Part shown: positions 17,375-32,876 of the stretch, in pieces | How positions within the stretch are numbered: the stretch's first letter is position 1 | How the letters are laid out: each line of letters starts with the position of its first letter | Source: Stenotrophomonas sp. 278 | GTDB lineage: Bacteria; Pseudomonadota; Gammaproteobacteria; Xanthomonadales; Xanthomonadaceae | Assembly: GCF_003935715.1 (NCBI RefSeq) | Contig: NZ_RHPP01000034.1 | Location: 1-33,073 of the forward strand | DNA: 33,073 bases | Reading direction: 5' to 3' | The notes under the pieces: generated by a model | Told to the model about the DNA's origin: nothing | Seen by the model: only the letters and a program-made list of their open reading frames with translations | Database searches by the model: none | Position numbers and translations under genes: made by a program

Positions 17375-17405
17375 TGCCGCGTTGATTGGGATTGCATGGA
17401 CCCCC

Positions 17406-17841
17406 GTAGAGCCACGCCCTGCGTGGCTGCTGTTGGATTCGTGCGAACAGCCTTCGGTTCACGGTATCCCTGGTTTGGCGGCTCGGGATGGGCGTTCCGG
17501 GGGACGGCGCAAGTACGTCCATGTAGCCTCGATCGCCGCATCCATGCGGCTCACGCCCCCTCCAGCCCATCCCGACCCGCCCCAGACAGCGTGTCGGTGG
17601 CCACGGGAAATGCCAAATCAACGGCGGTGTCGATTCGGGGTCATTCGTTACCGGACGTTGATTGTTTCACGGCCGTCGTCTGTCGTCAGACGCTACCGGC
17701 ATCGTGCGCGGATTAGCTTTTTGCTGGCCGCCTCGCGCGATCCATCGGGGGAGGCCGACAGGTAGCCCCCGGAGGGACACTCCACGGCATGGATGCCGTG
17801 GAGTAGCCTACATGGACGTACTTGCGGCGTGTCCCGGAGCG
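17406..17841. repeat. Composite intergenic repeat, copy A
   Basis: Fills most of the 525-base gap between convergent msrA and tal; I see no gene in it. Order: (1) GTAG hairpin head, stem AGCCACGC/GCGTGGCT (17410-17428); (2) a conserved arm including CTCGGGATGGGC; (3) outer stem 17477-17493 / 17565-17581 (16 of 17 pair); (4) within it the 18-mer GCAAGTACGTCCATGTAG (17509-17526) and an inner hairpin GCCGCAT/ATGCGGC (17535-17550); (5) a module with a CGTCTG..CAGACG hairpin (17640-17699); (6) a hairpin CTCCACGGC/GCCGTGGAG (17780-17803) plus TAG; (7) the 18-mer again, inverted and identical (17808-17825). Two further copies lie at 24946-25200 and 30721-31233. Confidence 0.8.
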
Positions 17842-17899
17842 GGGCTGCCTGTGGGCCTCCCCGCACGGAAAACCAGAAACGCCGCCGTTCGCGGAAAAC

Positions 17900-18862
17900 T
17901 TACAACCGCTCGCGAATCGTATTACGCAGCGCTTCGAGGTCCTTCGCGAACGCTTCAATACCCGTCGCCAGCTTTTCGGTGGCCATCGGATCGGCGGCGA
18001 GGTCTGCAGCAAAGCGCGCGGCATCAATCGGGGTCACGGCAGCGCCGTCGGCCGCAGACGGCGACAGCTTGCGCGGCAGCTCGCCGTGGTCGGCGTCCAG
18101 CTTTTCCAGCAGGTCCGGCGAGATGGTCAGGCGGTCGCAGCCGGCCAGCGCTTCGATCTGCGCGGTGGAACGGAACGAAGCGCCCATCACCACGGTGGCC
18201 GAACCACGGCGCTTGAATTCGGCATACACGCCGCGCACGAACACCACGCCCGGGTCTTCGTCGATGGTTGCCGGGGTCTGCCCATTGGCGACGTACCAGT
18301 CCAGGATCCGGCCCACGAACGGCGAGATCAGGAACGCACCCGCTTCACTGCAGGCCAGCGCCTGGGTGGGGTTGAAGATCAGCGTGAGGTTGCAGTCGAT
18401 GCCCTCGGCCTGCAGCTGGCGCGCGGCTTCCACGCCCTCCCAGGTGGCGGCGATCTTGATCAGCACCTTGCTGCGCGGCACGCCCAGCGTCTCGTACATG
18501 GCGATGAACTGGCGCGCCTTGGCCACGGTGGCCTCAACATTGTGGGCCAGGTCGGCATCCACTTCGGTCGACACCCGGCCCGGCACCAGCGTGCTCAGCA
18601 GCGCGCCCACGCCCACCGTCAGCCGGTCGGCCACGGCGTGCACGATGGTTTCGCGCTCGCCCTGCTGTTCACGGCCCCACGCCAGTTCGCGCTCGATCAG
18701 CTCCGCATACACCGGCAGGTCCAGTGCTTTCTTGACCAGGGTCGGATTGGTGGTGCAGTCGACCGGCTTCAGGCGTTTGATCGCCTCGTAGTCGCCGGTA
18801 TCGGCAACCACCACGGACAGGTCACGCAGCTGGGTGAGTTTGGACGGCGTTGCGGTGCTCAT
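17900..18862 (-). CDS. tal: Transaldolase
   Basis: Transfers the dihydroxyacetone moiety between sedoheptulose 7-phosphate and glyceraldehyde 3-phosphate in the non-oxidative pentose phosphate pathway. The 320-residue product matches class I TalB-type enzymes (E. coli TalB 317): an early [20 protein letters not shown], the [10 protein letters not shown] segment, and the Schiff-base lysine in [11 protein letters not shown] (Lys136), followed by [20 protein letters not shown] and [10 protein letters not shown]. Start MSTATPSKL at 18862 has AGGAG 5 bases upstream; the frame stays open upstream but lacks a comparable site. It follows the rnk-like gene by 77 bases and ends 59 bases after a composite repeat. 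Confidence 0.97.
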
Positions 18863-18939
18863 GGTCACTCCTGGTTCGAAAGCTTCAGACATGGCGGTGG
18901 GGGCGGCGCGTGTCGCGGCATACGCTCCCCGCCGCGCGA

Positions 18940-19347
18940 TCAGTTCGGGGTTGCATTGTGGACCGCGGTCACCCGCAGGCGCAGCTTGCGCCCACCCGGT
19001 GCATCCCAGTCCATGGACTGGCCCACGGCCAGACCCAGCAAGGCTGTGCCGACCGGCGCAAGGATCGAGACCTTGCCTTCGTCGACGTTGGCTTCGCGCG
19101 GATAGACCAGCGTGAGCACGTGCTTGTCGCCGTGCAGCTCATCTTCGCATTCCACGCGCGAATGCATCATGACGATGCCCTTCGGCATCTGGTCCGGCGC
19201 CACGACGGTCGCACGGTTGAGTTCCTGGGCCAGTGCCTGGCCGGCCGGAGACTGGGCAATGGCAGGCGCTTCGAGCATGGCATCCAGGCGGTCCATGTCG
19301 TGGCTGGAGACGGTGATCGACGGCGGCAGGCCGCTGGAAGAAGACAT
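18940..19347 (-). CDS. Rnk / GreA-GreB C-terminal domain protein
   Basis: A 135-residue protein with the fold of Rnk (regulator of nucleoside diphosphate kinase): a short N-terminal helical part ([19 protein letters not shown], then [16 protein letters not shown]) followed by the FKBP-like GreA/GreB C-terminal domain. Conserved stretches are [47 protein letters not shown] and a terminal RLRVTAVH strand. Family members bind RNA polymerase but lack the Gre-type coiled coil, so cleavage-factor activity is not expected. AGGAG precedes the ATG. It starts 29 bases downstream of the predicted oxyR terminator, so it is probably a separate unit, possibly read with tal. Confidence 0.87.
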
Positions 19348-19375
19348 ATGACACTCCTTGTTGATGGAAAAGGCA

Positions 19376-19406
19376 CAAGCAAAAGGCGGTGCCTGCTGGC
19401 ACCGCC
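19376..19406 (-). terminator. Rho-independent terminator after oxyR
   Basis: On the minus strand a perfect 9-bp stem, GGCGGTGCC / GGCACCGCC (19398-19406 and 19385-19393, 4-base loop), is followed by TTTTGCTTG. It lies about 70 bases past the oxyR stop and directly upstream of the rnk-like gene. Confidence 0.8.
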
Positions 19407-19474
19407 CGGGTTCTATTGTGCGATGTAACGGAGAAGGAATCGACCGGGGGACAGGGCAGGGCGATACGCCGGGT

Positions 19475-20434
19475 TCAGTTGGCCGCCGCCGCCGGTGCCG
19501 CCGGGGCAGACAGCATGCGGTCTTCGCTTTCCAGGGTCAGCAGGGCGTCTGGCAGCTGCTTGAACTGCCGGGCCAGCTGGCCGAGGAAGTCGGTCATCGC
19601 CGAGCTGCGCCGCCAGACCATGCCCACGCGCCGGCTCGGGCTGTCCGGCCCTTTGAAGTCGAGCAGGTGGATGCTGTCTGAACGCGGAACCGGTGGCTTG
19701 ACCGCCAGCGTCGGCAGCAGGGTGATACCCACGTCGGCAGCCACCATCTGGCGCAGCGTCTCCAGGCTGGTTGCGCGGAATTCGGATTTTTCGTTGGCCC
19801 CGAACATGCGGCATACCGCCAGCGCCTGGTCGCGCAGGCAGTGGCCGTCTTCCAGCAGCAGGAGCCGCTGGGTGGACAGTTCCTCGGCGTCCAGGTGGTC
19901 ACGGCTGGCGAGCGGGTGCTTGCTCGATACCGCCAGCAGGAAGGGCTCCTCGAACAGAAACTCCGCATGCAGGCTGTCATCGTCGACCGGCAATGCCAGC
20001 AGCGCCGCATCCAGCCGGCCGTCGCGCAGCCGGTGCAGCAGCTCGTCGCTTTTTTCCTCGACCAGCAGCAGTTCCAGGTGCGGATAACGCTTGCGGATGC
20101 CGGGGATGACGTGCGGCAGCAGATAGGGCCCCAGGGTCGGGAAGATGCCCAGGCGCACCGTGCCGGCCTCCGGGTCGCGCGCGCGGCGCGCGGCCTCCTT
20201 CAGTTCTTCGATCTCGGCCACGATCCCCCGCGCACGCATGGCGGCCTCATTGCCGGCGTGGGTCAGCATCACCTTGCGCGAACCGCGTTCCACCAGCGGC
20301 ACGCCCAGTTCGTCTTCCAGCTTGCGCAACTGGGTCGAGAGCGTGGGCTGGCTCACGTGGCAGACGGCAGCGGCCTTTCCGTAATGCTTGTGGTCGGCCA
20401 GCGCCACCAGGTACTTCAGGTCACGCAGGTTCAT
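19475..20434 (-). CDS. oxyR: Hydrogen peroxide-sensing LysR-type regulator OxyR
   Basis: Activates peroxide-defence genes when oxidised. The 319-residue protein has an N-terminal winged helix-turn-helix (MNLRDLKYLVALADHKHYGK then AAAVCHVSQPTLSTQLRKLE) and a substrate-binding-like regulatory domain. The two redox cysteines of E. coli OxyR are conserved at the same numbers, Cys199 and Cys208, in EDGHCLRDQALAVCRMFG. A C-terminal Ala/Pro-rich tail (SAPAAPAAAAN) is an extension. It starts 31 bases after ahpF, as in the ahpC-ahpF-oxyR order known from Xanthomonas, so it likely shares that transcript in addition to any promoter of its own. Confidence 0.97.
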   Translation of the reverse strand: MNLRDLKYLVALADHKHYGKAAAVCHVSQPTLSTQLRKLEDELGVPLVERGSRKVMLTHAGNEAAMRARGIVAEIEELKEAARRARDPEAGTVRLGIFPTLGPYLLPHVIPGIRKRYPHLELLLVEEKSDELLHRLRDGRLDAALLALPVDDDSLHAEFLFEEPFLLAVSSKHPLASRDHLDAEELSTQRLLLLEDGHCLRDQALAVCRMFGANEKSEFRATSLETLRQMVAADVGITLLPTLAVKPPVPRSDSIHLLDFKGPDSPSRRVGMVWRRSSAMTDFLGQLARQFKQLPDALLTLESEDRMLSAPAAPAAAAN

Positions 20435-20465
20435 TTCCTTGTACCTCCAGACAATGCACCGCTTA

Positions 20466-22058
20466 TCAGGCAGCTTCGGCGACCGCGCCGCTGCTCTTCG
20501 GAACGGAGGTGCGGATCAGGTGGTCGAACGCGCTCAGCGCAGCCGTTGAACCGGCCCCCATCGCGATGATGATCTGCTTATAGGGTACGGTAGTGCAATC
20601 GCCTGCAGCGAACACGCCAGGCACGCTGGTCTGGCCGCGGTCGTCGATCAGGATCTCGCCGCGCGGCGACAAGGCCACGCTGTCCTTCAGCCACTCGGTA
20701 TTGGGCAGCAGGCCGATCTGCACGAAGATACCTTCAAGTTCGACCCGATGTGCGTCGCCGCCCACGCGGTCCTGGTAGACCAGGCCGTTCACCTTCTGCC
20801 CGTCGCCCAGCACTTCCTGGGTCAGCGCGCTGGTGATGATCGTGACGTTGCCCAGGCTGCGCAGCTTTTTCTGCAGTACTTCGTCGGCGCGCAGCTTGTC
20901 GTCGAACTCCAGCAGGGTCACGTGTGCCACGATGCCGGCCAGGTCGATGGCCGCTTCGACACCGGAGTTGCCGCCGCCGATCACTGCCACGCGCTTGCCC
21001 TTGAACAGCGGCCCGTCACAGTGCGGGCAATAGGCCACGCCCTTGTTGCGGTACTGGTCTTCGCCGGGCACGTTCATCTGCCGCCAGCGCGCACCGGTGG
21101 ACAGGATCACCGAGCGCGACTTCAGCGACGCGCCATTCTCCAGCTTGATTTCAACCAGGCCGTCGTCTCCGGCCGGGACCAGGGCGGTGGCGCGCTGGAG
21201 GTTCATGATGTCCACCTCGTACTCGCGCACGTGCTGCTCCAGTGCGGTGGCGAGCTTCGGGCCCTCGGTTTCCTTGACCGAGATGAAGTTCTCGATCGCC
21301 ATGGTGTCGAGCACCTGGCCGCCAAAGCGCTCGGCGGCCACGCCGGTGCGGATGCCCTTGCGCGCGGCATAGATCGCCGCGGCGGCACCGGCCGGACCAC
21401 CGCCCACCACCAGGACGTCGAACGGAGCCTTGGTCGCGATCTTCTCGGCGTCGCGCTTCGCGGCACCGGTGTCGAGCTTGGCCACGATCTGCTCCAGGGT
21501 CATGCGGCCCTGGTCGAATACCTCACCGTTGAGGTAGATGGTGGGCACCGACATGATCTGGCGCGCTTCCACCTCGGCGGGGAACAGGCCGCCATCGATC
21601 GCCACGTGCTGGATGCGCGGGTTCAGCACCGCTGCCAGGTTCAGCGCCTGGACGACGTCGGGGCAGTTCTGGCACGACAGCGAGAAGTAGGTTTCAAAGC
21701 GGTAGTCACCGTCCAGGTTGCGCACCTGCTCGATCAGCTCGGCGGTGGCCTTGGAGGGGTGGCCACCCACCTGCAGCAGGGCCAGCACCAGTGAGGTGAA
21801 TTCGTGGCCCATGGGCAAGCCGGCAAAGGCCAGATGGATGTCCTGCCCCGGGGAGCCCAGCGCGAACGACGGCGTGCGCTCGCCACTGTCGCGACGCACT
21901 TCCAGGCTGATCTGCGAGGACAGCGTGGTCAGCGTTTCAAGCAGCTCGAGCATTTCCTGCGACTTGGCGCTGTCATCCGCATGCGCCGTGATCTGGATCG
22001 GGCGGGTGACGCGTTCCAGGTAGGTCTTCAGCTGGGACTGGAGGTTGGCATCCAACAT
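20466..22058 (-). CDS. ahpF: Alkyl hydroperoxide reductase subunit F
   Basis: NADH-dependent flavoprotein disulfide reductase that recharges AhpC. The 530-residue product has the double thioredoxin-like N-terminal domain with the redox pair SCQNC (Cys129/Cys132, the E. coli positions), a linker near 200-212, then FAD- and NADH-binding domains: [20 protein letters not shown], the [10 protein letters not shown] redox centre (Cys344/Cys347), [19 protein letters not shown], and [14 protein letters not shown] near the end. It follows ahpC after 151 bases that hold a strong hairpin and is followed by oxyR. Confidence 0.98.
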
Positions 22059-22122
22059 CGAAAACTCCTTGATTCAGGCAAACGGACAGCGTCGACGCGC
22101 CCCACGGGTGCATCAGCGCGAC

Positions 22123-22199
22123 ATGGGGGTGAACCGAAGCGGGCGCGTGAGCACCCGCTTGGGTTCACCCCCATCCCCGTCGAAACGGGAATGGGGATG
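22123..22199 (-). terminator. Strong hairpins between ahpC and ahpF (partial terminator or processing site)
   Basis: A 21-position inverted repeat, arms 22123-22143 and 22154-22174 (ATGGGGGTGAACC and AAGCGGG paired with their complements, a single G/G mismatch at 22136/22161), encloses a 10-base loop. Next to it CATCCCC (22172-22178) pairs with GGGGATG (22193-22199) around a small CCCGT-CGAA-ACGGG hairpin. There is no T-run, so this looks like an attenuating or RNA-stabilising structure and not a full terminator. It would favour ahpC over ahpF expression. Confidence 0.6.
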
Positions 22200-22209
22200 C
22201 GATAGCGGC

Positions 22210-22773
22210 TTAGATCTTGCCGACCAGGTCCAGCGACGGGGTCAGGGTCTTTTCGCCTTCCTTCCACTTGGCCGGGCACACCTGGTTCGGGTTGGCGGCG
22301 GTGAACTGGGCAGCCTTCAGCTTGCGCAGGGTTTCGGAGACGTCACGGGCGATCTCGTTGGAATGGATTTCCAGGGTCTTGATCACGCCTTCCGGGTTGA
22401 TGATGAAGGTGCCGCGCAGGGCCAGGCCTTCTTCTTCAATGTGCACGCCGAAGGCGCGGGTCAGCTTGTGGGTCGGGTCGCCGACCAGCGGGAACTGGGC
22501 CTTGCCGACGGCCGGCGAGGTTTCGTGCCACACCTTGTGCGAGAAGTGGGTGTCGGTGGTGACGATGTAGACCTCGGCACCGGCCTTCTTGAACTCGGCG
22601 TAATGGTCAGCGGCGTCTTCGATTTCGGTCGGGCAGTTGAAGGTGAAGGCGGCCGGCATGAAGATCAGGACGGACCACTGGCCCTTCAGGCTGGCGTCGG
22701 AAACCTTGATGAATTCGCCGTTCTGGTAGGCGTTGGCTTCGAACGACTGGATCTGGGTGTTGATGAGCGACAT
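22210..22773 (-). CDS. ahpC: Alkyl hydroperoxide reductase subunit C (2-Cys peroxiredoxin)
   Basis: Typical 2-Cys peroxiredoxin that reduces hydrogen peroxide and organic hydroperoxides. The 187-residue product has the peroxidatic motif PAAFTFNCPTEIED (Cys47) and the resolving cysteine in NQVCPAKW (Cys166), with TTDTHFSHKVWHE and RGTFIINPEG in between, as in E. coli AhpC (187 residues). Start MSLINTQIQSF at 22773. It is the first gene of ahpC-ahpF-oxyR. A candidate OxyR operator lies about 95-120 bases upstream, consistent with peroxide induction. Confidence 0.98.
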   Translation of the reverse strand: MSLINTQIQSFEANAYQNGEFIKVSDASLKGQWSVLIFMPAAFTFNCPTEIEDAADHYAEFKKAGAEVYIVTTDTHFSHKVWHETSPAVGKAQFPLVGDPTHKLTRAFGVHIEEEGLALRGTFIINPEGVIKTLEIHSNEIARDVSETLRKLKAAQFTAANPNQVCPAKWKEGEKTLTPSLDLVGKI

Positions 22774-22867
22774 CGATGTTCCTCTTGGATGAAGGGCGGG
22801 GTGAAGCGATGGGTAAAGACTACCGGTCCTCGGTCGATTAGTGAAATCAATTGATTCACTACTTTTC

Positions 22868-22893
22868 GATAGACACCATCTATCGTGGATAGT
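22868..22893 (-). promoter_or_regulatory. Candidate OxyR operator upstream of ahpC
   Basis: GATAG-N7-CTATC (22868-22884) is a perfect match to one half of the OxyR consensus ATAG-N7-CTAT, and another GATAG follows three bases later (22888-22892). The third block is two bases closer than in the E. coli four-block consensus, and no fourth block is clear. Between this and ahpC is a near-palindrome TAGTGAA-A-TCAATTGA-TTCACTA (22839-22861). The rest of the 292-base gap to prmC is AT-richer than its surroundings and holds no gene. Confidence 0.6.
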
Positions 22894-23011
22894 TCAGGCG
22901 TCTCTACCCTCAACCACCAAGATGGGGTTGGATATCTTTCAATTCAATGACTTGAGTCCAGAATGAGTCGATGACCGTGATAGATGCCGTAAATGGACCG
23001 GCGTGGGCGGC

Positions 23012-23039
23012 TGAACAATGCTGCAACCTGACCTACACT
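23012..23039 (+). promoter_or_regulatory. Possible sigma-70 promoter for prmC
   Basis: TGAACA (23012-23017) and TACACT (23034-23039) are separated by 16 bases, a fair match to -35/-10 consensus, and lie 27 bases before the prmC start in the divergent ahpC/prmC gap. Motif match only. Confidence 0.35.
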
Positions 23040-23065
23040 GCGCGCCCTAGAGTTCCAGGCCTGCC

Positions 23066-23914
23066 ATGACTGTCGCGCCATACCGTGAGATCCGCCAGCT
23101 GCTGGCCGACGCCGCCGGGCAGCTGCCGGGCGTGGAGGGCCGCCATGAGGCGGAGCTGCTGCTGCTGCACGTACTGGGCCGCGAACGCAGCTGGTTGTTC
23201 GCACACGCCACCGATGCCGTGGAACCGGCGACCGAGGCGGCGTTTGCGCAGTTGCTGCAGCGCCGGATCCAGGGGGAGCCGGTGGCCTATCTGTTGGGAC
23301 GGCGGGGATTCTGGACACTGGACCTGACGGTCAGCCCGGCCACGCTGATTCCCCGACCGGAAACCGAGCGACTCGTTGAGCTGGCGCTGGAACGGCTGCC
23401 TGCGGACCGTCCACTGCAGGTGGCCGACCTGGGCACCGGCAGCGGGGCCATCGCACTGGCGCTGGCCAGCGAACGCCCGCTGGCGCAGGTGCTGGCCACC
23501 GACATGAGCCCGCAGGCGCTGGCGGTGGCTGCCGAGAATGCCCGCCGGCATGAACTGGTCAACGTGCACTTCCAGCAGGGGTCCTGGCACGCGGCGCTGG
23601 GGCAGGAACGCTTCGACCTGATCGCCACCAATCCGCCCTACATCGCGGCGGACGACCCCCACCTGGCGCAGGGTGACCTGCGTTTCGAGCCTGCCACCGC
23701 ACTGGCATCGGGCGCGGACGGCCTGGACGACATCCGGGTGATCATCGAGGGGGCACCGGCGCGCCTGGTGGCAGGCGGCTGGTTGCTGATCGAGCATGGC
23801 TGGGACCAGGGACCGGCGATCCGCGCACTGCTGGAGCAGGCGGGCTTCGTGGAAGTCAGCACGGCACTGGACCTGGAACACCGCGACCGGGTCAGTCTGG
23901 GCCGCCTGCCTTGA
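23066..23914 (+). CDS. prmC: Release factor glutamine methyltransferase PrmC (HemK)
   Basis: Methylates the glutamine of the GGQ motif of release factors RF1 and RF2 with SAM, needed for efficient termination. The 282-residue protein has a helical N-terminal release-factor-binding domain (residues 1-75), the linker [26 protein letters not shown] split across the hinge, the SAM motif [15 protein letters not shown] (about 120-133), and the catalytic [10 protein letters not shown] (NPPY at 189-192). It ends with EHGWDQG and a final strand RVSLGRLP. Length matches E. coli PrmC (277). It is followed 54 bases later by the proline iminopeptidase gene on the same strand. Confidence 0.97.
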
Positions 23915-23968
23915 GCGGAGGCGGGGCTAGAATGGCAGCCAGTGTTTCATTCATCTGGAGCTTCGCCC

Positions 23969-24913
23969 ATGCGCACGCTGTACCCCGCGATCACCCCCTA
24001 TGACGTTGGCAGCCTGAAGGTCGACGACCGCCACACGCTGTATTTCGAGCAGTGCGGCAACCCCGACGGCAAGCCGGTGGTGATGCTGCATGGGGGTCCG
24101 GGCGGCGGTTGCAGCGAGAAGATGCGTCAGTTCCACGACCCGGCCAGGTACCGCATCATTCTGTTCGACCAGCGCGGTGCCGGGCGCTCGACACCGCATG
24201 CGGACCTGGTCGACAACACCACCTGGGACCTGGTGGCCGACATCGAGAAACTGCGTGAGCACCTGAAGGTGGAGCGCTGGCAGGTATTCGGCGGCAGCTG
24301 GGGTTCGACCCTGGCGCTGGCCTATGCACAGACCCACCCGCAGCAGGTGACCGAGCTGGTGCTGCGCGGCATCTTCATGCTGCGCCGCTGGGAACTGGAG
24401 TGGTTCTACCAGGAAGGTGCCAACCGCCTGTTCCCGGACGCGTGGGAACACTACCTTGCCCCGATTCCGGCGGTGGAGCGCCACGACCTGATTTCGGCCT
24501 TCCATCGCCGCCTGACCAGTGAGGACGAAGCGACCCGGCTGGCGGCCGCCAAGGCGTGGAGCGTGTGGGAGGGTGCCACCAGCTTCCTGCATGTGGACCC
24601 GGACTTCGTGAACAGCCATGAGGACCCGCACTTCGCACTGGCGTTCGCGCGCATCGAGAACCACTACTTCGTCAACGGTGGCTTCTTTGAAGTGGAAGAT
24701 CAGCTGCTGCGCGACGCGCACCGCATTGCCGACATCCCGGGCGTGATCGTGCACGGCCGCTACGACGTGGTCTGCCCGCTGCAGAACGCCTGGGAACTGC
24801 ACAAGGCCTGGCCGAAGTCGACGCTGGAGATCTCGCCCGCTTCGGGTCATTCGGCATTCGAGGCAGAGAACATCGATGCCCTGGTGCGCGCCACCGATCG
24901 ATTCGCAGGCTGA
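23969..24913 (+). CDS. pip: Proline iminopeptidase
   Basis: Cytoplasmic serine peptidase (S33 family, alpha/beta-hydrolase) that removes N-terminal proline from peptides. The 314-residue product has the oxyanion-hole motif HGGPGGGCSEK, DQRGAGRS, the nucleophile in VFGGSWGSTLA (Ser110), the acid in GRYDVVCP (Asp266) and the base in SGHSAFE (His294), with a helical cap between. These numbers agree with my recollection of the Xanthomonas campestris enzyme. Start MRTLYPAITP at 23969 has TGGAG 8 bases upstream; an in-frame ATG at 23942 is less likely. The stop (24911-24913) lies inside a 15-base direct repeat. Confidence 0.96.
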   Translation: MRTLYPAITPYDVGSLKVDDRHTLYFEQCGNPDGKPVVMLHGGPGGGCSEKMRQFHDPARYRIILFDQRGAGRSTPHADLVDNTTWDLVADIEKLREHLKVERWQVFGGSWGSTLALAYAQTHPQQVTELVLRGIFMLRRWELEWFYQEGANRLFPDAWEHYLAPIPAVERHDLISAFHRRLTSEDEATRLAAAKAWSVWEGATSFLHVDPDFVNSHEDPHFALAFARIENHYFVNGGFFEVEDQLLRDAHRIADIPGVIVHGRYDVVCPLQNAWELHKAWPKSTLEISPASGHSAFEAENIDALVRATDRFAG

Positions 24914-24943
24914 TTGCACGATCTGTATCTGATTGCACGATCT
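24910..24943 (+). repeat. 15-bp tandem direct repeat at the pip stop codon
   Basis: CTGATTGCACGATCT occurs at 24910-24924 and again at 24929-24943, separated by GTAT. The first copy contains the pip stop codon. A composite repeat begins three bases after the second copy. The duplication may mark the insertion point of that repeat or replication slippage. Confidence 0.8.
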
Positions 24944-24945
24944 CC

Positions 24946-25200
24946 GTAGAGCCGGGCTCTGCCCGGCTGCTGTTGGATTCGTGCGAACATCCCTCGGTTC
25001 ACGGGATCCCTGGTTTGGCGGCTCGGGATGGGTTTGCGGGACACGCCGTGAGCCGCATGGATGCGGCGATCGAGCTTACATGGACGTACTTGCAGCGTCC
25101 CCCGGAACGCCCATCCCGATCCGCCAACCGAGGGGGGCCCTAAACCACAGGCTGTTCGCCCAAAACCAACAGCAGCCGGGCAACGCCCGGCGATCCGTAG
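24946..25200. repeat. Composite intergenic repeat, copy B (symmetrical, centre inverted)
   Basis: Fills the gap between convergent pip and the amidohydrolase gene. GTAG head with stem AGCCGGGC/GCCCGGCT (24950-24968) and the same arm as copy A, outer stem 25017-25032 / 25109-25125, and here a full right arm ending in a mirror hairpin GCCGGGC/GCCCGGC (25175-25191). The centre is reversed relative to copies A and C: the inner hairpin GCCGCAT/ATGCGGC (25052-25067) comes first and the 18-mer variant follows on the minus strand (25076-25093). No gene is visible. Confidence 0.8.
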
Positions 25201-25209
25201 CCCCCGCAA

Positions 25210-26007
25210 TCACGCCATCGCCAGCAACTGCGGCTCCAACACGCCGAACACCCGCGCCAAACGATCCGCCCACGCGATCTGCCCGGCTGCATCGGCAATC
25301 AGGTCCTGGCGGATCTCCAGTTCCACGTGCACCAACCCGCGGCCCTCGCCATGCACCGGCACCGCGTAGTCGCTGGTGCTGCTGACCGAATACGGCTCGT
25401 TGTCGCCTACGACCAGATCATCTTCATCGCGCAGCGCCTGCAGCAGTGCGTGCGCGAAACGCGTGTCACGGTGGTACAGCACGCCGGCGTGCCAGGGGCG
25501 GTCGTATCCGTTCATTGACGGAGTGAAGCTGTGCATCATCACCAGCACTGTCGGCCGACCCTGTGCGCGGCGTGCGTCGAGCTCGGCCTCGATACGGGCG
25601 TGATACGGCGCGTGGATCGCCTCGATACGTTGCTGGCGCTGCGTGTTGCTTAAAGAAGCGTTACCCGGAATGCGGGTGTGATCGCTGATTTCCGGAATCA
25701 GCGTCGGAGATGCCAGCGGTCGGTTGCAGTCGATCAGCAGCCGCGAATAGGTCTGCTCGATCGCCCACGCATCCAACCGCTCGGACAGCGCCCGGGTGGT
25801 GCCGGCAATGCCGATGTCCCAGCCGATATGCCGGTCGAGCTCGGCTTGCGGCAGCCCCAACCCCTCCAGCGCGGCAGGGACCACCTGTCCGGCGTGATCG
25901 GCCAGCAGCACGAACGGCGAACGTCCCTGCGCCTGGTGCACCGTGTACACCTCCGGATCGGCCGCTCCAAGCAGGGCGGGCAGCTGTTGCCGGCCGGTAT
26001 CAGCCAC
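25210..26007 (-). CDS. N-formylglutamate amidohydrolase family protein
   Basis: A 265-residue member of the N-formylglutamate amidohydrolase (FGase, HutG-like) family, metal-dependent hydrolases of N-formyl amino acids. Signatures are VLLADHAGQVVPAAL, LDRHIGWDIGIAG, RLLIDCNRP, and VMMHSFTPSMNG with a conserved His, then HVELEIRQDLI near the end. No histidine-utilisation genes lie nearby, so a role in the hut pathway is not supported by context and the true substrate may differ. The ATG at 26007 overlaps the Nudix stop by eight bases. Last gene of the nitroreductase-exonuclease-Nudix-amidohydrolase unit. Confidence 0.88.
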   Translation of the reverse strand: MADTGRQQLPALLGAADPEVYTVHQAQGRSPFVLLADHAGQVVPAALEGLGLPQAELDRHIGWDIGIAGTTRALSERLDAWAIEQTYSRLLIDCNRPLASPTLIPEISDHTRIPGNASLSNTQRQQRIEAIHAPYHARIEAELDARRAQGRPTVLVMMHSFTPSMNGYDRPWHAGVLYHRDTRFAHALLQALRDEDDLVVGDNEPYSVSSTSDYAVPVHGEGRGLVHVELEIRQDLIADAAGQIAWADRLARVFGVLEPQLLAMA

Positions 26008-26551
26008 GCGGCGTACCGTCCAGATGGTGTTCGATCATCCACAGCCCCGCCCACAGCTTGGCATCGAGCTGGTAGCCCTGGTTCATTTTTTCCACCAGCC
26101 AAGCGGCGGCCCGCGCCCGCGGGATCGCATGCACGGTGATGTCTTCGCTTTCATCGCCACCGCCTGCGCCGACCTGGCGCAGACCGGTGGCGCGCACGAA
26201 GGCGATGCGCTCGCTGCTGGCACCGGACGAGGTCGGGCCGATCATCAACACCTCGGCGTGATCGGCGGTCCAGCCGGTTTCTTCCTCCAGTTCGCGCACC
26301 GCCGAGGCTTCGATCGACTCGCCGGCCTCGATGTCGCCGACCAGGCCGGCCGGCATTTCGATGGTCAGTGCCTGCAGCGGTACCCGGAACTGCTCCACGA
26401 ACAACACCTCGTCATCTGGCGTCACCGCGATGATGATCGCGGCCAGTCCGCCCGCATGGGTGCGCTCGCTGTATTCCCAGCTGCCGCGCACCACCATGCG
26501 CTGGTATTTGCCTTCGTAGACGACCTTGGGGGGTTGGGAGTTGTGACTCAT
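26000..26551 (-). CDS. Nudix hydrolase (ADP-sugar pyrophosphatase-like)
   Basis: Hydrolyses a nucleoside diphosphate linked to another moiety. The 183-residue protein has a complete Nudix box at residues 72-94 (GDIEAGE, then seven residues, RELEEETGW), and an N-terminal strand region (VVYEGKYQRMVVRGSWEY) typical of the ADP-ribose pyrophosphatase subfamily; VEQFRVPLQALTIEMPAG precedes the box, also as in that group. Start MSHNSQPPK at 26551 overlaps the exonuclease stop (ATGA), which rules in favour of this start over the longer frame. Substrate inferred by subfamily only. Confidence 0.9.
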   Translation of the reverse strand: MSHNSQPPKVVYEGKYQRMVVRGSWEYSERTHAGGLAAIIIAVTPDDEVLFVEQFRVPLQALTIEMPAGLVGDIEAGESIEASAVRELEEETGWTADHAEVLMIGPTSSGASSERIAFVRATGLRQVGAGGGDESEDITVHAIPRARAAAWLVEKMNQGYQLDAKLWAGLWMIEHHLDGTPRG

Positions 26552-27498
26552 GCGAACTCGTTGGCAACAGAAGAGGAATCGGAAAGGCCGCCGGCGGTGA
26601 ACAGCCGACGGCGGGTAAGTGGGCCGAAACGCAGCGCGTCGCAGAGACCCTGCAGCATCTGCGCATCGGCGCTGCCGCGACTGAAGCCGCTGTCGCTGCC
26701 GTCCAGCGGTGCATCCAGCGCGATGGTGGTCAATTGCCGCCACAACAGGGCGTGCTCGCGTTGCTCGCGCAGCCGCACCGCCATCTGCGCGGCACCGCGC
26801 AGGCGCAGGAACGGTACTTCGTCCAGGCGTTCATACAGCACGTCCAGGCTGCCGAAGTGCGCCAGCAGTATGGCTGCGGATTTCGCGCCGACGCCGGTGA
26901 TGCCCGGAATGTTGTCGACCGCATCGCCACACAGCGCCAGGTAGTCGGCAATCTGGTGGGCCTGCACGCCGTGGCGCGCTTTCACCCCTGCCATGCCCCA
27001 GCGCTGGTTGCGCGCATAGTCCCACTGCTCGTCGTGCTCGTGCAGCAGCTGCGACAGGTCCTTGTCGGCGGAAATGATCACCCCGCGCATGCCGCCGGGA
27101 CGGCTGGCGTGCAGCGCGCTGCCAATCAGGTCGTCCGCTTCGTACTCGTGATGGGCCAGCACGCTCAGGCCCAGTGCCATGCACAGCGCCTTGCAATGCG
27201 CGAACTGACGACGCAGCTCTTCGGGAGCCGGATCGCGGTTGGCCTTGTAGGCGGTATACAGGCGGTGGCGGAAGCAGCTGTCCAGGGCCTCGTCGAAGGC
27301 CACCACGATGTGCTGCGGGCGCTCGCGTTCCAGCAGGTCCAGCAGGAACCGCGCAAAGCCGTGCACGGCGTTGGTCGGCCAGCCCTGCTGGTCCTGGAAC
27401 TCGTTCGGCATCGAGTGCCAGGCCCGGAACACATACAGGCTGGCATCGACCAGATACAGCGGCGGGCGTACGGCCAGCGCGGGCGGAGCCTGGATCAT
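26548..27498 (-). CDS. 5'-3' exonuclease, Xni / PolI N-terminal domain-like
   Basis: A 316-residue structure-specific 5' nuclease related to the 5'-3' exonuclease domain of DNA polymerase I, without a polymerase domain (E. coli Xni/ExoIX is about 250). Metal-binding acidic motifs are visible: PLYLVDASLYVFRAW, HIVVAFDEALDS, YEADDLIGS, ISADKDLSQLL and the helix-hairpin-helix region GDAVDNIPGITGVGAKSA. These residues look complete, so activity is expected; the cellular role (flap processing, repair) is inferred. Start MIQAPPALAV at 27498 lies one base after the nitroreductase stop; the extended upstream frame is not family-like. Confidence 0.91.
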   Translation of the reverse strand: MIQAPPALAVRPPLYLVDASLYVFRAWHSMPNEFQDQQGWPTNAVHGFARFLLDLLERERPQHIVVAFDEALDSCFRHRLYTAYKANRDPAPEELRRQFAHCKALCMALGLSVLAHHEYEADDLIGSALHASRPGGMRGVIISADKDLSQLLHEHDEQWDYARNQRWGMAGVKARHGVQAHQIADYLALCGDAVDNIPGITGVGAKSAAILLAHFGSLDVLYERLDEVPFLRLRGAAQMAVRLREQREHALLWRQLTTIALDAPLDGSDSGFSRGSADAQMLQGLCDALRFGPLTRRRLFTAGGLSDSSSVANEFA

Positions 27499-27499
27499 C

Positions 27500-28075
27500 T
27501 CAGCCCACCCAGTCCTGCAGCAGCGCGGCCGGGTCGGGGCGCTCGCGCTCGGGTACTTCGGCCTTGGGGGTCCCGATGTGGATGAATCCGGCAATGCGCT
27601 CGTGTTCGGCCAGGCCCAGATGGGCGTGCACGGCCGGGTCGAAGGCCATCCAGGCCGTCAGCCACTGCGCGCCAAAGCCCATGGCCTGGGCGGCCTGCAG
27701 CAGGGCGAAGCAGACGCAGCCGGCGGTCATCAGCTGCTCCTGCTCCGGCACCTTGGGGCTGGGCGTAGGGCAGGCGACGACCGTCACGATCAGCGGCGCG
27801 TGGGAAAACCGCAGGCGGTCCTTCTCGACCTGGGCATCTGACGCATTCAGGTCGCGCGCGCGGCTGCGCTCGGCCAGGAAGGCTCCCAGAGTGTGACGTG
27901 CGTCACCCTGGATGCTCAGGAAACGGAAGGGCACCTTCTTGCCGTGATCGGGCACCCGGACGGCGGAAGCCAGCATCCGCAGCAGGGTTTCGCGGTCGGG
28001 GCCTGGGGCGGTCAGCTGCAGCGCGGGGGTCGAGCGACGGGCGTCCAGGGCTTGCAGCGCAGGAGAATCGGGCAT
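27500..28075 (-). CDS. Nitroreductase family flavoprotein (YdjA-like)
   Basis: A 191-residue FMN-dependent NAD(P)H oxidoreductase of the small YdjA-type nitroreductase group. Characteristic stretches: an N-terminal RRSTPALQLTAPGPDRETLL (FMN phosphate-binding Arg/Ser), VRVPDHGKKVPFRFLSIQGD, and the C-terminal GFGAQWLTAWMAFDPAVHAH with AGFIHIGTP. Physiological substrate unknown. It is the first gene of a four-gene minus-strand unit, with a TATAAT -10 box about 30 bases upstream and a CRP/Clp-type site further out. Confidence 0.9.
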   Translation of the reverse strand: MPDSPALQALDARRSTPALQLTAPGPDRETLLRMLASAVRVPDHGKKVPFRFLSIQGDARHTLGAFLAERSRARDLNASDAQVEKDRLRFSHAPLIVTVVACPTPSPKVPEQEQLMTAGCVCFALLQAAQAMGFGAQWLTAWMAFDPAVHAHLGLAEHERIAGFIHIGTPKAEVPERERPDPAALLQDWVG

Positions 28076-28104
28076 GGCACTCAGGGGTTTTTTACAGATG
28101 GGGA

Positions 28105-28110
28105 ATTATA
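28105..28110 (-). promoter_or_regulatory. -10 box (TATAAT) of the nitroreductase unit
   Basis: A perfect TATAAT on the minus strand, 30 bases before the nitroreductase start. The -35 at 17-base spacing (CCGACG) is poor, which fits a promoter needing an activator; the CRP/Clp-type palindrome centred near 28173 would lie about 75 bases upstream of the predicted start point. Confidence 0.45.
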
Positions 28111-28166
28111 GTCGGGGCGCTTTGTGACGTCGGTTTTGGTCAACTGTGTGCCATTTACGACGAAAC

Positions 28167-28180
28167 GTGATGCACATCAC
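28167..28180. promoter_or_regulatory. CRP/Clp-type binding site in the nitroreductase / DUF1631 gap
   Basis: GTGA-TGCACA-TCAC is a perfect core of the CRP consensus (TGTGA-N6-TCACA), with a full GTGAT/ATCAC dyad. In Xanthomonadaceae the CRP homologue Clp, which is inhibited by c-di-GMP, binds such sites. The 332-base divergent gap holds no gene I can support; it also has an 8-bp inverted repeat ACCGGTGC / GCACCGGT (28301-28308, 28343-28350) shortly before the DUF1631 start. Confidence 0.6.
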
Positions 28181-28407
28181 TTAATGAAACCCATCCCTTC
28201 ACACTCCTGTACTCGCTTCCGACTGGCACTCGCCTTACGATACAAGGCCTGCCGGTACCCGGTTGTGAGGTTTGAAGTGAGGACTGTTTCACTGTCCCCG
28301 ACCGGTGCGCCGATCTACCATCCGCGTGCGGGTGCCTGGGGGGCACCGGTATGCGGTGCATCCATGCTGCATTCGTTGGATTCTGGAAAGGTGGGGAGCC
28401 TTTTCGC

Positions 28408-30717
28408 ATGATCGCCACGCCCAATGTCATGGGGCAGCCCGGCCGTGATCCGGCCCTGCTCAAGCTCGCTCGCGAGGCTGCCCTGCCGGGGCTGGCCGAG
28501 TCGTTCGCGACCGTGCTGGCCCGCTTCGATGACGTCCTGTTCGACCGCGCCAGCAACGCCGGCGCGTCGCAGCTGCTGTTCCTGGATGGCATGCGCGAGC
28601 TGCGCCGCCGCCGCGAGGACATCGTGGCCGGCTTCCGTGCACACCTGGCACTGGCCTGGGATTCGCTCGAACGCGGGCAGCCGTTGTCGGCCGAAACCAC
28701 CCTGGCCGGCCCGGTCGAAGGCGGGCTGAGCCTGGTTCCCGAACACGTGCTGGAATCGCGTCTGGCGGTCCGCAACTTCGCGGTCGTGCTGTTACGCGAC
28801 TGGAAGCCGGTGCTGGCACGCCTGGACCGCCGTCTGGGCTGGATCGCCGGCGGGCTGGAGTTGAACGCTGACACCAATCCGGTCAGCCCGGAACACATCG
28901 GGGTGGCCATACATGAGGCGTTCGCCGACTGCGAACTGGCTCCGGAAGTGCGACTGGTGTTGATCAAATTGTGCGAGCGGGACCTGCACGGCCCCATCGG
29001 CAAGCGCTATGAAAAGCTCGACGAGCAACTGGCGGCGGCAGGCGTGATGCCGCAGATTGCCGCGCCGCGCAAGCCGGCACCCCGTCCGCCCGCCGCGCGC
29101 AACGAACTTGATGAGCTGGTCGAGGCGTTGGACACGGAAGCGCCATCTCGGGGCGACGACTCCTCGGCTCCGGCCTGGGCGCGGCGTTTTGCCGACCGCT
29201 GGGCGGCCAGCCGCGGCCGCATGCAGTCGGCCCAGGCGGCCTACCAGGAAGCCGGCGAAGCCGACGGCATGAACAACAACCAGGGCATGCTGCTGGAGGC
29301 CCTGCATGAACTGCTGCAGCAGACCCGGCATGTGCGCGAGGACGCGACCTCGGCCGCCAGCGTCGCGGTGGGCCAGCAGCGCCCGTTGAGCCAGCGCGAG
29401 ATGATGTCGGTGCTTTCGCTGCTGCAGGCCACGCCGAGTGCGACCCTGCGCGCGGCCATCGGCGAGGACGGCGAGTCGCTGGCGCAGCGTCTGAAGAGCG
29501 AAGTGCTGTCCAGTGCCACCCAGCTGGGCGTGGACCCGGCGCAGGCACGCCTGGACCCGCAGGATGAAGATGCCATCGACCTGGTCGGCATGCTGTTTGA
29601 CGTGATGCTTGACGAGCGCGACCTGGAAGGGCGTTCGCGTGAGCTGATCGGCCGGCTGGTGGTGCCGTTCGTCAAGGTGGCGATGCTGGACCGCCGCATG
29701 TTCGTGCAGAAGACCCATCCGGCACGCAAACTGCTCAACTCTCTGGCCGAGGCATGCGAGGGAAATACCGGCGAAAGCCAGGCCGAGCGCGTGCTGATGG
29801 GCAAGGTCGAGGAGATCATCGAGCGGCTGGTAGCCGAGTTCAATGAGAACCTGGCGATCTTCCTCACGCTGGAGGAAGAGTTCCGCGATTTCCTGTCCCA
29901 GCACCGCCGTCGCATCGAAATTGCCGAGCGCCGTGCTGCGGAAACCCAGCGCGGCCAGGAAAAGCTTGAGGTGGCGCGCACGCGCGCGGCCGGCGAACTG
30001 GAATGGCGCGTGGAGGACCAGCACCTGCCGCAGGCGATTGATGAATTCCTGCGCCAGCCGTGGCAGCACCATCTGACCCTGGCGGTGCTCCGCGAGGGCG
30101 ACGACGGTGCCTCGGTGAGCGAAGCGCTGGCGTTGGCCGACGGTATGCTGGAAGAGGTCGCGGAAGCGCGCCGCCAGATCGTGGGCAAGCCGTGGCTGCA
30201 GGCTTGGCAGCCGGTGCTGCGCAAGGTCTTTGCCAGCGTCGGCGTGCATGCCGATGCGGCAACGGCGGCGATTGACGCGCTGCACGACACGCTGCAGGCG
30301 GTCGCCGAATCGCGTCCGGAGCTGGAGCGCGCGCTGCCGGAACTGCCACAGGTGGTCCTTCCGGCACCGCCGGCGGCCGACGCCGGCGGCGTGGAACTGG
30401 AAGGCAAGGTCGACGTGACCGATTTCGACAATGCCGACGCCGACCGTTTCCGCGGCATGGAAATCGGCAGCTGGCTGGATTTCGTTGACAAGGACGGCAA
30501 GGTGCAGGCCGGCAAGCTGTCGTGGGTGAGCCCGATTTCCTCGCGCCTGCTGTTCGTGAACCGCCGCGGCGTGCGTTTCTGCGTGGCTTCGCCCGAGGAA
30601 CTGGCGGTCATGGTCCGCCTCGGCCGCCTGCGCCCGCACGTCGACGACGGCGCGTTCGACAGCGCCATGCAGGGCGTCATCGACCGCCTCGACACCAAGG
30701 GCGCCACCGTCCACTAA
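28408..30717 (+). CDS. Large DUF1631 family protein
   Basis: A 769-residue cytoplasmic protein of the DUF1631 family (old annotations as thymidine phosphorylase-like are misleading). No signal peptide. It is largely helical, with a Pro/Ala/Arg-rich linker at about 215-235, long conserved helices including LVGMLFDVMLDERDLEGRSR and FVKVAMLDRRMFVQKTHPAR, and a charged coiled coil at about 489-532 (EEEFRDFLSQHRRR onward). A beta-rich C-terminal module at about 689-735 (SWLDFVDKDGKVQAGKLSWV, then SRLLFVNRRGVRF) looks like a small PilZ-type barrel, but the RxxxR c-di-GMP motif is not evident. Start MIATPNVMG at 28408 has GGGGAG nine bases upstream; an ATG at 28351 would add 19 unconvincing residues. 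Function unknown. Confidence 0.88.
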   Translation: MIATPNVMGQPGRDPALLKLAREAALPGLAESFATVLARFDDVLFDRASNAGASQLLFLDGMRELRRRREDIVAGFRAHLALAWDSLERGQPLSAETTLAGPVEGGLSLVPEHVLESRLAVRNFAVVLLRDWKPVLARLDRRLGWIAGGLELNADTNPVSPEHIGVAIHEAFADCELAPEVRLVLIKLCERDLHGPIGKRYEKLDEQLAAAGVMPQIAAPRKPAPRPPAARNELDELVEALDTEAPSRGDDSSAPAWARRFADRWAASRGRMQSAQAAYQEAGEADGMNNNQGMLLEALHELLQQTRHVREDATSAASVAVGQQRPLSQREMMSVLSLLQATPSATLRAAIGEDGESLAQRLKSEVLSSATQLGVDPAQARLDPQDEDAIDLVGMLFDVMLDERDLEGRSRELIGRLVVPFVKVAMLDRRMFVQKTHPARKLLNSLAEACEGNTGESQAERVLMGKVEEIIERLVAEFNENLAIFLTLEEEFRDFLSQHRRRIEIAERRAAETQRGQEKLEVARTRAAGELEWRVEDQHLPQAIDEFLRQPWQHHLTLAVLREGDDGASVSEALALADGMLEEVAEARRQIVGKPWLQAWQPVLRKVFASVGVHADAATAAIDALHDTLQAVAESRPELERALPELPQVVLPAPPAADAGGVELEGKVDVTDFDNADADRFRGMEIGSWLDFVDKDGKVQAGKLSWVSPISSRLLFVNRRGVRFCVASPEELAVMVRLGRLRPHVDDGAFDSAMQGVIDRLDTKGATVH

Positions 30718-30720
30718 GCC

Positions 30721-31233
30721 GTAGAGCCGGGCTTGCCCGGCTGCTGTTGGCTTTTGGCGAACCACACTCGGTTCACGGCCTTCCTGGTTTGGCGGGTCGG
30801 GATGGGCGTTGCGGGGGACGCTGCAAGTACGTCCCTGTAAGCTCGATCGCCGCATCCATGCGGCTCACGCCCCCTCCAGCCCACCCCGACCCGCCATCGA
30901 CAGACGGTCGGTGGTCATCGAAAACCAAAAACACGTAACCCCGGTAGCGTCGGTCGACAGACGACGGCCGTGAAATCCTCCACATCCGGTAACGCATGAC
31001 CCTGAAGCAACAACGGCGGTTGCTGTTGCTCTTGGGGCCGCCTTGCGCAATCCATCAGGGGCGGGGGCGGGTGCCCTCCGTAGGGACACTCCACGGCATG
31101 GGTTCGGCGCATGCGCCGAACGGGTTGGGCAGGAGGCCCAACCCCGGCCTTGCCGTATGCGCAGGACAGCGCATACGAGCAAGCCGTGGAGTAGCCTACA
31201 TGGACGTACTTGCGGCGTGTCCCGGAGCGAGGG
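30721..31233. repeat. Composite intergenic repeat, copy C
   Basis: Occupies most of the 614-base gap between the DUF1631 gene and pntAA; no gene is seen. GTAG head three bases after the DUF1631 stop, stem AGCCGGGC/GCCCGGCT (30725-30742); outer stem 30791-30807 / 30879-30895 (16 of 17 pair); 18-mer variant 30823-30840; inner hairpin 30849-30864; a hairpin module at 30940-30999 in the opposite orientation to copy A; the CTCCACGGC...GCCGTGGAG stem (31089-31191) carrying an insertion of three hairpins; and the 18-mer again on the minus strand (31196-31213). The remaining 31234-31331 is AT-richer and may hold the pntAA promoter. Confidence 0.8.
31089..31191. repeat. Nested four-way hairpin structure in copy C
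   Basis: Outer stem CTCCACGGC (31089-31097) with GCCGTGGAG (31183-31191). Inside are three hairpins in a row: a perfect 20-base palindrome (31102-31121); GGGTTGGGC/GCCCAACCC (31122-31130, 31136-31144, loop AGGAG); and CGTATGCGC/GCGCATACG (31154-31162, 31169-31177, loop AGGACA), extended by CTTGC/GCAAG with one bulged base. Copy A has only the outer hairpin (17780-17803). It is not a tRNA: no T-loop, anticodon-arm geometry or CCA end. Confidence 0.85.
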
Positions 31234-31331
31234 TGCCCGCTCCCGACCCAGCACGGACAAATCAAAGCGCCGCTCTTCGCATCAAGCTACGATCAACCAA
31301 TAAACCGATAAACCACAACGCGAGGACACGC

Positions 31332-32455: not shown

Positions 32456-32876
32456 AACGCGGTGCCGGATCGTCTTTCACGGCATTGGCCTTCAACCACT
32501 CCTGGCGCTGCTCCGGCGTCATCTTGCCCCAGCGCTCACGCAATGCCTCACGTTGGTCCGGGGTCATGCTGCGCATCTGTGCGAACAACGCCCGCGCCTG
32601 CTCGCGCTGGGCCGGGGTCATGTTCTCGAAGCGGTGACGGCCGCGCCGCGCCAGCTCGCGCTGTTCCGGGGTCATGCTTTCCCAGCGCTGCCCATGCTGC
32701 AGCATGCGTTGGCGCTGTGGCGGAGCGGCGTTGTTCCAGCGGTCGCGCAGTGGTGCGATCAGCGCTTCGCGCTGCTCTGGGGTGAGCCTGTCCCAGTCGG
32801 GCAGCGGCGAGGTCTGTGCCCAGCCGCTGGCGCTCAGCGACAACAGCACCATGGCAAGTGTGGTCTGCAGTTTCAT
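32454..32876 (-). CDS. Secreted DUF3106 protein with MTPxQR repeats
   Basis: A 140-residue exported protein: signal peptide MKLQTTLAMVLLSLSASGWA, then a highly charged helical body built of repeats of the form (M/L)TPxQRxxL, for example LTPEQREAL, MTPEQREL, MTPAQREQA, MTPDQREAL and MTPEQRQEW, roughly every 16-24 residues. This is the DUF3106 pattern; the function is unknown, and a periplasmic location is inferred from the leader. The ATG at 32876 has GGAG upstream and lies two bases after the stop of the preceding gene, so they are coupled. The frame has a further upstream Met without a comparable site. Confidence 0.88.
   Translation of the reverse strand: MKLQTTLAMVLLSLSASGWAQTSPLPDWDRLTPEQREALIAPLRDRWNNAAPPQRQRMLQHGQRWESMTPEQRELARRGRHRFENMTPAQREQARALFAQMRSMTPDQREALRERWGKMTPEQRQEWLKANAVKDDPAPR

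Follow-up and report, generated by a model that had tools for sequence, protein, structure and literature searches.

What is repeated, and for what purpose, in three long composite structures that lie between genes of Stenotrophomonas sp. 278? The structures lie in a 33,073-nucleotide stretch of the draft genome (contig NZ_RHPP01000034.1 of assembly GCF_003935715.1; hereafter the window), with GTAG heads at 17406, 24946 and 30721. A first-pass annotation had described them as a family of long structured intergenic repeats in which each composite was the repeating unit. The family stands, but the unit is smaller, being a cassette of about 95 nt that occurs five times in the window. On one strand of this cassette, here called the GGA strand, both hairpins are tipped by CANGGANG loops, which were missed earlier because only the opposite (UCC) strand had been read. 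We propose that the cassette is a mobile-like intergenic element encoding, on one strand, an RNA with two binding sites for CsrA/RsmA, a reading to which we assign a probability of roughly 0.58.

The cassette comprises three helices, a long stem (P1, median 27 positions) bearing two hairpins, P3 and P2. P2 consists of a three-pair tip, a five-base bulge (CTTGC, TTCAC or TTTAC in 254 of 260 instances) and a three-pair base, and the 18-mer common to the composites is the opposite-strand reading of this hairpin. In an alignment, A1, of 44 diverse cassettes out of 52 selected, 90.8 percent of 1452 cells pair compared with 60.5 percent after shuffling, the percentage being raised by the omission of eight irregularly spaced cassettes (from L043, L050, L089, L100, L031, L030, L123 and L115; L and G numbers are our labels for loci and genomes). 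Both sides of a pair are altered in 436 cells against 152.6 in shuffles, and such changes reach 29 of the 33 pairs against 26.1. The covariation score of 0.728 compares with 0.189 for shuffled alignments and falls to 0.10-0.18 when pairing partners are slid, a comparison that favours the unslid structure since it was drawn from one of the aligned sequences. Indeed, P1 can be fully different between copies of one genome and yet remain paired (L060).

The hairpins vary in the same manner. The P2 base occurs as GCC/GGC, GCT/AGC, GGC/GCC, GCG/CGC and other variants (one detector required pairing here, the A1 analysis did not), and these swaps mean that the GTAG or GTAA end of the 18-mer reflects pairing rather than the tag of a repetitive extragenic palindrome (REP). 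The P2 tip is near-invariant in A1; in a wider set aligned by covariance model (CM), 55 rows have A-T and 31 have C-G at the tip pair beside the closing C-G, without mixed totals. Extension of the palindrome beyond P1 is not general, only 21 percent of 232 exceeding the shuffled maximum.

The loops behave differently from the stems. Both are hexaloops closed by a C-G pair. Two standard hexaloops are found in 86 of 94 distinct CM-aligned rows, a set recovered with a model that was itself based on conserved loops. Throughout these rows (86/86) both loops keep C, A, G, G, A and G unchanged; the two N positions alone vary, the first being T, G or A (also C in P2) and the second C, T, A or G. Eight rows (L239, L190, L189, L314, L334, L335, L336 and L312) are left out of this loop table. 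In 241 elements found by pattern, for which the exact 18-mer was part of the selection, 51 have a change at the N of ANGGA and no other loop position is changed in more than 12. Because the loop sets were partly picked by conserved letters, this contrast between positions carries more weight than absolute constancy.

Loops of this kind point to CsrA/RsmA. The features ascribed to CsrA sites in the accessible part of PMC7652899 are the RUACARGGAUGU consensus from systematic evolution of ligands by exponential enrichment, an ANGGAN hexaloop, AC/GU pairing and the bridging of two sites 10-63 nt apart. The cassette has ANGGAN hexaloops closed by paired AC/GU or C-G, and its two sites fall within that range, the GGA-to-GGA spacing being 19-25 nt in 91 of the 99 aligned rows that could be counted. 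Enlarged cassettes have extra hairpins with AGGA loops on the GGA strand (L008, L016, L029, L072, L190 and L312), and csrA is present in this genome.

The strand under constraint can be read from the mismatches of P1, which was scored by Watson-Crick (WC) pairs only, so that G-T and A-C mismatches were treated alike. On the GGA strand, 46 non-redundant pattern-found stems, drawn from the 209 of 239 elements with detectable P3, contain 39 G-T and 5 A-C mismatches. When model-found stems are included (85 in all) the counts are 51 and 8, with 35 elements leaning to G-T against 5 (p 1.4e-6). Sorted by neighbouring genes, related copies included, the G-T:A-C counts are 24:2 and 40:3 in the two co-directional orientations, 104:5 in convergent gaps and 6:2 in divergent ones. 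The bias is alike in both co-directional orientations and in convergent gaps, with few divergent data, so that constraint acts on the GGA strand as a single strand, independently of how the genes beside it are arranged.

These features suggest how the element may work. In RNA of the GGA strand, P1 would present two side-by-side hairpins, in both of which C-G closes an ANGGAN hexaloop, at a spacing that would let one CsrA dimer hold both sites. With dozens of such sites, a genome could hold a scattered set of decoys, or the sites could mark the transcripts bearing them, while the cassettes would spread and turn over between genes in the manner of mobile elements.

The distribution of the cassette is that of a dispersed family. 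With a covariance model, R1, at least 67 places are recovered from the draft genome of this strain (E up to 1), and for 57 of these E is below 1e-8; the count is a minimum, since scoring covered 150 of 2803 first-look candidates and the assembly is split into 337 contigs. The 18-mer at up to two mismatches has 24 sites in the same genome. The hundreds of copies per genome expected by the first-pass annotation go beyond what these counts bear out. Across the class Gammaproteobacteria, R1 matches at least 50 of 274 genomes and 45 of 221 genera (also a lower bound, as scoring covered 15 candidates in each genome), and in a phylum sample at least 21 of 299, of which 20 are of the same class and the remaining one matches at E 7.6e-4. 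The 18-mer at up to one mismatch is found in 70 of 91 genomes of the genus, and exactly in at least 118 stretches, whose titles, among the matches listed, include Marinobacter, Halopseudomonas and Halioglobus; the named records with the same repeat types, again among the matches listed, belong to Stenotrophomonas and Xanthomonas. More than three copies, covarying stems and parts conserved in relatives are thus all observed, the reverse of the outcomes that the first-pass annotation had said would count against its family.

Copies also turn over. Some genomes hold several of equal score (G125, G157), and G542 has six tandem cassettes on one strand at steps of about 227 bp (L345 1925-3155). Orthologous gaps were compared in two sets of 30 loci, with both flanks obtained in 11 and 27; those in relatives are short and cassette-free (L260, 24 nt; L283, 99 nt) or filled with cassettes having other stems, and by eye the same gap in L295 and L297 has both P1 arms changed. 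In the orthologue of the 17375-17899 gap (L273), the 3' end of the upstream gene is partly repeated in the intergenic region, together with SMAG-like units, as a tandem duplication.

The suggestion of a non-autonomous mobile element is compatible with the dispersal, equal-scoring copies and variable occupancy, but no transposase could be linked to the cassette. For a miniature inverted-repeat transposable element (MITE), which is marked by a target-site duplication and a cognate transposase, the observations amount to gaps that relatives leave empty or fill differently, and to no transposase at the loci described next. Y1-transposase genes are present in 22 of 29 cassette-bearing genomes, and at 33 such loci (30 of the Y1 places in those genomes and three of this genome) a cassette lies within about 1.5 kb on either side in only one, none of the three in this genome having a cassette at the locus. 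On this count we reject mobilisation by a REP-associated tyrosine transposase (RAYT). Nor is any transposase tied to the cassette among the 12 largest clusters of neighbouring proteins from 118 loci, of which the top two derive from shadow frames in the repeat itself, the third is mixed (17 loci) and the others span at most seven loci each. The spreading machinery was accordingly not found within these clusters and Y1 loci. Plasmid and phage collections gave no match to one 55-base query, by which cassettes with other stems could be missed.

IS110 transposases do occur among the smaller neighbour clusters, located inside the repeat. These IS110-family insertions (Pfam DEDD_Tnp_IS110 in L114 and L171), about 1.26-1.29 kb long, lie at the same point in the cassette, directly after the GTAG of the 18-mer (L114 3597; L126 3088, counted on the minus strand; L171 1437), and the same left junction is seen in L129 and L012/L021; L114 and L126 are Xanthomonas records. 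Elsewhere, two inverted cassettes flank a 294-residue frame with a DUF4357 domain (L342 2146-3326), a possible cargo unit with a radical-SAM/TRAM (rimO-like) gene on one side and a frataxin gene on the other.

Comparison with known RNAs places the cassette close to a family predicted to bind CsrA. At curated Rfam thresholds neither the window nor 11 distant loci gave a match. Permissive scans returned TwoAYGGAY, Ysr224 and Rsm-type matches, besides microRNA-type matches that we took for palindrome artefacts. TwoAYGGAY (RF01731) has, like the cassette, an outer stem round two adjacent A-N-GGA hexaloop hairpins on the same strand; it shares Rfam clan CL00106 with RsmY and rsmX and is predicted to bind CsrA, according to the portion of PMC4333381 available. 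The two adjacent AYGGAY-type hairpins that characterise it are found in the cassette, with ANGGAN in both loops of 86 of the 94 rows; the cassette differs in the 5-nt bulge of P2 and in a second loop base that is mostly, not always, Y. The TwoAYGGAY model finds five cassettes of this genome, all under its cut-off (best 36.9 vs 43 bits), and three R1 matches from another bacterial family (L334-L336) exceed it at 55.3, 52.9 and 65.2 bits, so that cassette and TwoAYGGAY are continuous. The 2010 account (Weinberg 2010) lists it, in the part accessible, for the human gut, gammaproteobacteria and Clostridiales, and that part contains no statement on dispersed copies that we saw.

Ysr224 (RF02770), a small RNA (sRNA) reported from RNA data of Yersinia, represents the opposite strand, its consensus including the UCC strand of P2 and P3. 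In a set of 21 related genomes its model yields candidate places below the cut-off, 37 to 81 of them in each of 7 genomes, 7 in one more, none in 12 and 3 in this genome; none of the 21 has a place above the cut-off of 70 bits, the best being 43.4. PMC9029176 lists Ysr224 as responding to temperature in Yersinia pseudotuberculosis and counts it with the 20 most prevalent sRNA annotations, and in Y. ruckeri it is multi-copy with 80-91 percent identity between copies (PMC12112432); the accessible text of neither paper speaks of dispersed repeats or makes a connection with CsrA. RsmU of Xanthomonas campestris resembles the proposed RNA as an RsmA-binding 3'-UTR (untranslated region) RNA from a related bacterium, but differs in its 117/77 nt, its own terminator and its single locus, as far as the available part of PMC7694677 shows.

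Among DNA repeats, the SMAG or GTAG REPs and bacterial interspersed mosaic elements (BIMEs) of Stenotrophomonas, in which the SMAG families are GTAG-6 to 9 (PMC3733652, accessible part), are intergenic and palindromic like the cassette, and SMAG units form the heads of the composites. The cassette differs from them in its length of about 95 nt, its three helices, its want of a GTAG tag of its own and its proximity to only 1 of 33 Y1-type genes. The description of a GTAG REP, namely a GTAG tag with a 20-40 bp palindrome tied to a RAYT, fits the heads only. The terminal inverted repeats of the Y1 'TIRYT' transposases of S. maltophilia, described in the accessible part of the same paper, bear on module C, the part of composites 1 and 3 that resembles repeats beside a Y1 gene of this genome (L025), whereas the cassette is missing from L025 and from 31 of the other 32 Y1 loci. 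No description of the cassette as CsrA sites turned up in the openly readable literature that our searches covered.

Several observations weigh against a CsrA/RsmA-binding RNA, and the most serious concern its transcription. Gene calls were made with simple purpose-made callers, and context was counted where two neighbours lay within 1200 bases; of 180 such cassettes, 90 are convergent, 79 co-directional and 11 divergent. Co-directional cassettes are evenly split between GGA-sense and UCC-sense in loci rich in Xanthomonadaceae (13 vs 13 for singles, 26 vs 27 when clustered), and class-wide they favour the UCC sense (5 vs 18, binomial p 0.011). The gene 3' of the GGA strand faces the cassette in 32 of 42 class-wide cases, mostly one per genome (binomial p 0.0009). 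Adjacent mRNA thus often holds the UCC strand, and the GGA RNA would therefore need its own or antisense transcription, which is the main difficulty for our proposal. By eye there is no conserved promoter block upstream, and a sigma-70 consensus scan of composites 1 and 3 found none, although xanthomonad promoters may not fit that consensus. A CsrB/RsmZ-type sponge sRNA gene would carry a promoter and a terminator of its own, and T tails after the stem are likewise wanting.

Carriage of the regulator gene was compared as well. A csrA match is present in 46 of 50 cassette-bearing genomes of the class and in 189 of the 224 others (Fisher p 0.19), and the four carriers lacking one are 75, 88, 67 and 98 percent complete. 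G285 (98 percent complete, nine cassette matches) and G159 (88 percent, 14 matches) are among those without a csrA match and are possible counter-examples or assembly gaps. The eight rows without two standard loops show a deletion, an enlarged, odd or truncated loop, or the P2 form of L334-L336, whose end, judged by eye, is A-N-GGA as well; in L239 the motif has gone through deletion. Enlarged cassettes, for their part, interrupt their own P3 loop. Finally, changes to the GGA motifs of Xanthomonas RsmU failed to abolish RsmA binding, as reported in the accessible part of PMC7694677, and GGA motifs alone are therefore an imperfect guide.

The main rival holds that the GGA strand folds as single-stranded DNA during replication or transfer, the loop being the site of a transposase or recombinase and the likeness to CsrA sites a coincidence. 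Dispersal, variable occupancy of the same gap in relatives, the run of six in G542 and the want of a rule relating the cassette to transcription would all be in keeping with this, and strand-specific pairing would suit folded DNA too. Yet no transposase was tied to the cassette among the 12 largest neighbour clusters near the 118 loci, a cassette is found at only one of the 33 Y1 loci, and P1 arms that are wholly different within one genome still pair (L060); we regard this explanation as unlikely, though it is the strongest of the alternatives.

A role for the UCC strand is less probable again. As a stabiliser of mRNA 3' ends, a stem past the stop codon would block 3' exonucleases, as REPs and BIMEs do, which would suit the genes that face the cassette (32 of 42), the UCC orientation of Ysr224 and the run of prpB-, citrate synthase-, aconitase- and PrpF-type genes that contains four cassettes in both orientations (L348 1985-6301). 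A G-U pair on the UCC strand would, however, be the rare mismatch (5 vs 39 and 8 vs 51), and a plain barrier has no need of constant loops, which makes this reading improbable. Of the functions offered by the first-pass annotation, an element acting at the level of RNA is best supported, and its interpretation as a whole is borne out in part. Its proposal of transcription terminators fares worst. Convergent gaps are indeed common (90 of the 180 scored cassettes), and our own gene caller places two of the three composites, copies 1 and 2, in such gaps, in line with the two that it had noted, whereas the genes on either side of copy 3 are co-directional. Against this, the U run that should follow the GC-rich hairpin of an intrinsic terminator is missing, T-rich tails following the stem in 1 and 2 of 258 cases on the two strands compared with 1 and 5 in shuffles. 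A terminator consensus scan found none at composite 1, and at composite 3 none that falls on a cassette stem. The cassettes of L295 have a separate two-way terminator beside them (2352-2383), a hairpin that by eye recurs in L293, L294 and L297-L299. An intrinsic terminator is thus not supported and is very improbable, and a two-site CsrA/RsmA-binding RNA on the GGA strand remains the reading that we favour.

Within the window, the composites follow a common plan of SMAG head, arm and one or two cassettes (Table 1). All the ordered parts named in the first-pass annotation were located where it had placed them, by reading the sequence and rechecking coordinates, and its outer stem is present in each copy, that of copy 2 lying inside a longer pair of arms. 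Composites 1 and 3 contain a type-A cassette, the 78-nt module C (in opposite orientations) and an inverted type-B cassette; composite 2 is a single cassette at the tip of a longer palindrome. Repeat finding gave 191 nt at 84 percent identity between copies as well as inverted arms, 154 nt long at 84 percent and 156 nt long at 82 percent, and the 18-mer at up to three mismatches has 5 sites in the window against 0.01 expected. Because SMAG units occur only in the heads and module C resembles Y1-side repeats, the composites are mosaics of three kinds of repeat. At the Y1 locus concerned (L025, contig C127 of this genome, 1430-2340), two 87-nt repeats akin to module C lie on one side of the transposase gene. 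Further along the window, three direct 24-nt repeats, 54 bases apart, occupy 32547-32678.

Table 1. Parts of the three composites, in coordinates of the window.
Feature	Position	Strand	Details
SMAG-type head, composite 1	17406..17428	+	GTAG tetranucleotide and hairpin AGCCACGC/GCGTGGCT; sequence reading
Cassette 1, type A	17477..17581	-	P1 arms 17477-17493 / 17565-17581, 16/17 paired; CM match 17483-17577, E 2.4e-15
18-mer (P2 hairpin of cassette 1)	17509..17526	+	Hexaloop 17517-17522, ATGGAC on - strand
P3 hairpin, cassette 1	17535..17550	-	Loop 17540-17545, ATGGAT on - strand; P3 covaries in alignment
Module C, copy 1	17622..17699	-	Akin to repeats by Y1 gene in L025; alignment score 59 vs shuffled maximum 37
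Cassette 2, type B	17748..17862	+	P1 arms 17748-17769 / 17841-17862, 20 WC and 1 G-U of 22; CM match 17757-17851, E 6.6e-15
P3, cassette 2	17780..17803	+	Hexaloop ATGGAT 17789-17794
P2, cassette 2	17806..17828	+	GCC, TAC, loop ATGGAC (17812-17817), GTA, 5-nt bulge CTTGC, GGC; P2 base and tip covary
SMAG-type head, composite 2	24946..24968	+	Sequence reading
Cassette 3	24996..25146	+	37-nt P1 arms 24996-25032 / 25110-25146, 29 WC and 1 G-U; apex P3 and P2
Cassette 3, CM match	25021-25119	+	E 5.5e-12; 103-nt palindrome, 76 percent
18-mer variant in cassette 3	25076-25093	-	
Inverted SMAG-like end, composite 2	25167..25200	-	Sequence reading
SMAG-type head, composite 3	30721..30742	+	Sequence reading
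Cassette 4, type A	30797..30891	-	P1 17 WC and 1 G-U of 18; CM E 9.2e-16; 18-mer variant 30823-30840 (+)
Module C, copy 2	30941..31018	+	Inverted relative to copy 1; scores 67 in alignment to L025 vs shuffled maximum 38
Cassette 5, type B, enlarged	31058..31249	+	P1 arms 31058-31078 / 31229-31249, 17 WC and 3 G-U of 21; CM match 31146-31232, E 7.2e-4
18-mer complement in cassette 5	31196-31213		
Three hairpins inserted in P3 loop of cassette 5	31102-31121, 31122-31144, 31154-31177	+	Own P3 loop interrupted; last two with AGGA in loop, + strand

In the usual picture, each genome tunes CsrA/RsmA through a small number of dedicated sponge RNAs. Elements of the cassette's kind were already known; our analysis adds that the cassette is dispersed and multi-copy, supplies evidence on its strand and connects two Rfam entries. 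It is tempting to speculate that gammaproteobacterial genomes hold dozens of dispersed, self-spreading two-site CsrA/RsmA docking hairpins that buffer the regulator, with Ysr224 and TwoAYGGAY as opposite-strand or lineage descriptions of the same element, a broader picture that we advance tentatively and at somewhat less than even odds. If it is true, a large and strain-variable pool of CsrA/RsmA sites would exist at dozens of loci, and the regulon maps of Xanthomonas, Stenotrophomonas, Marinobacter and their relatives would have to be read differently. It would also offer a testable reason why a repeat family keeps its loops fixed while every stem changes.

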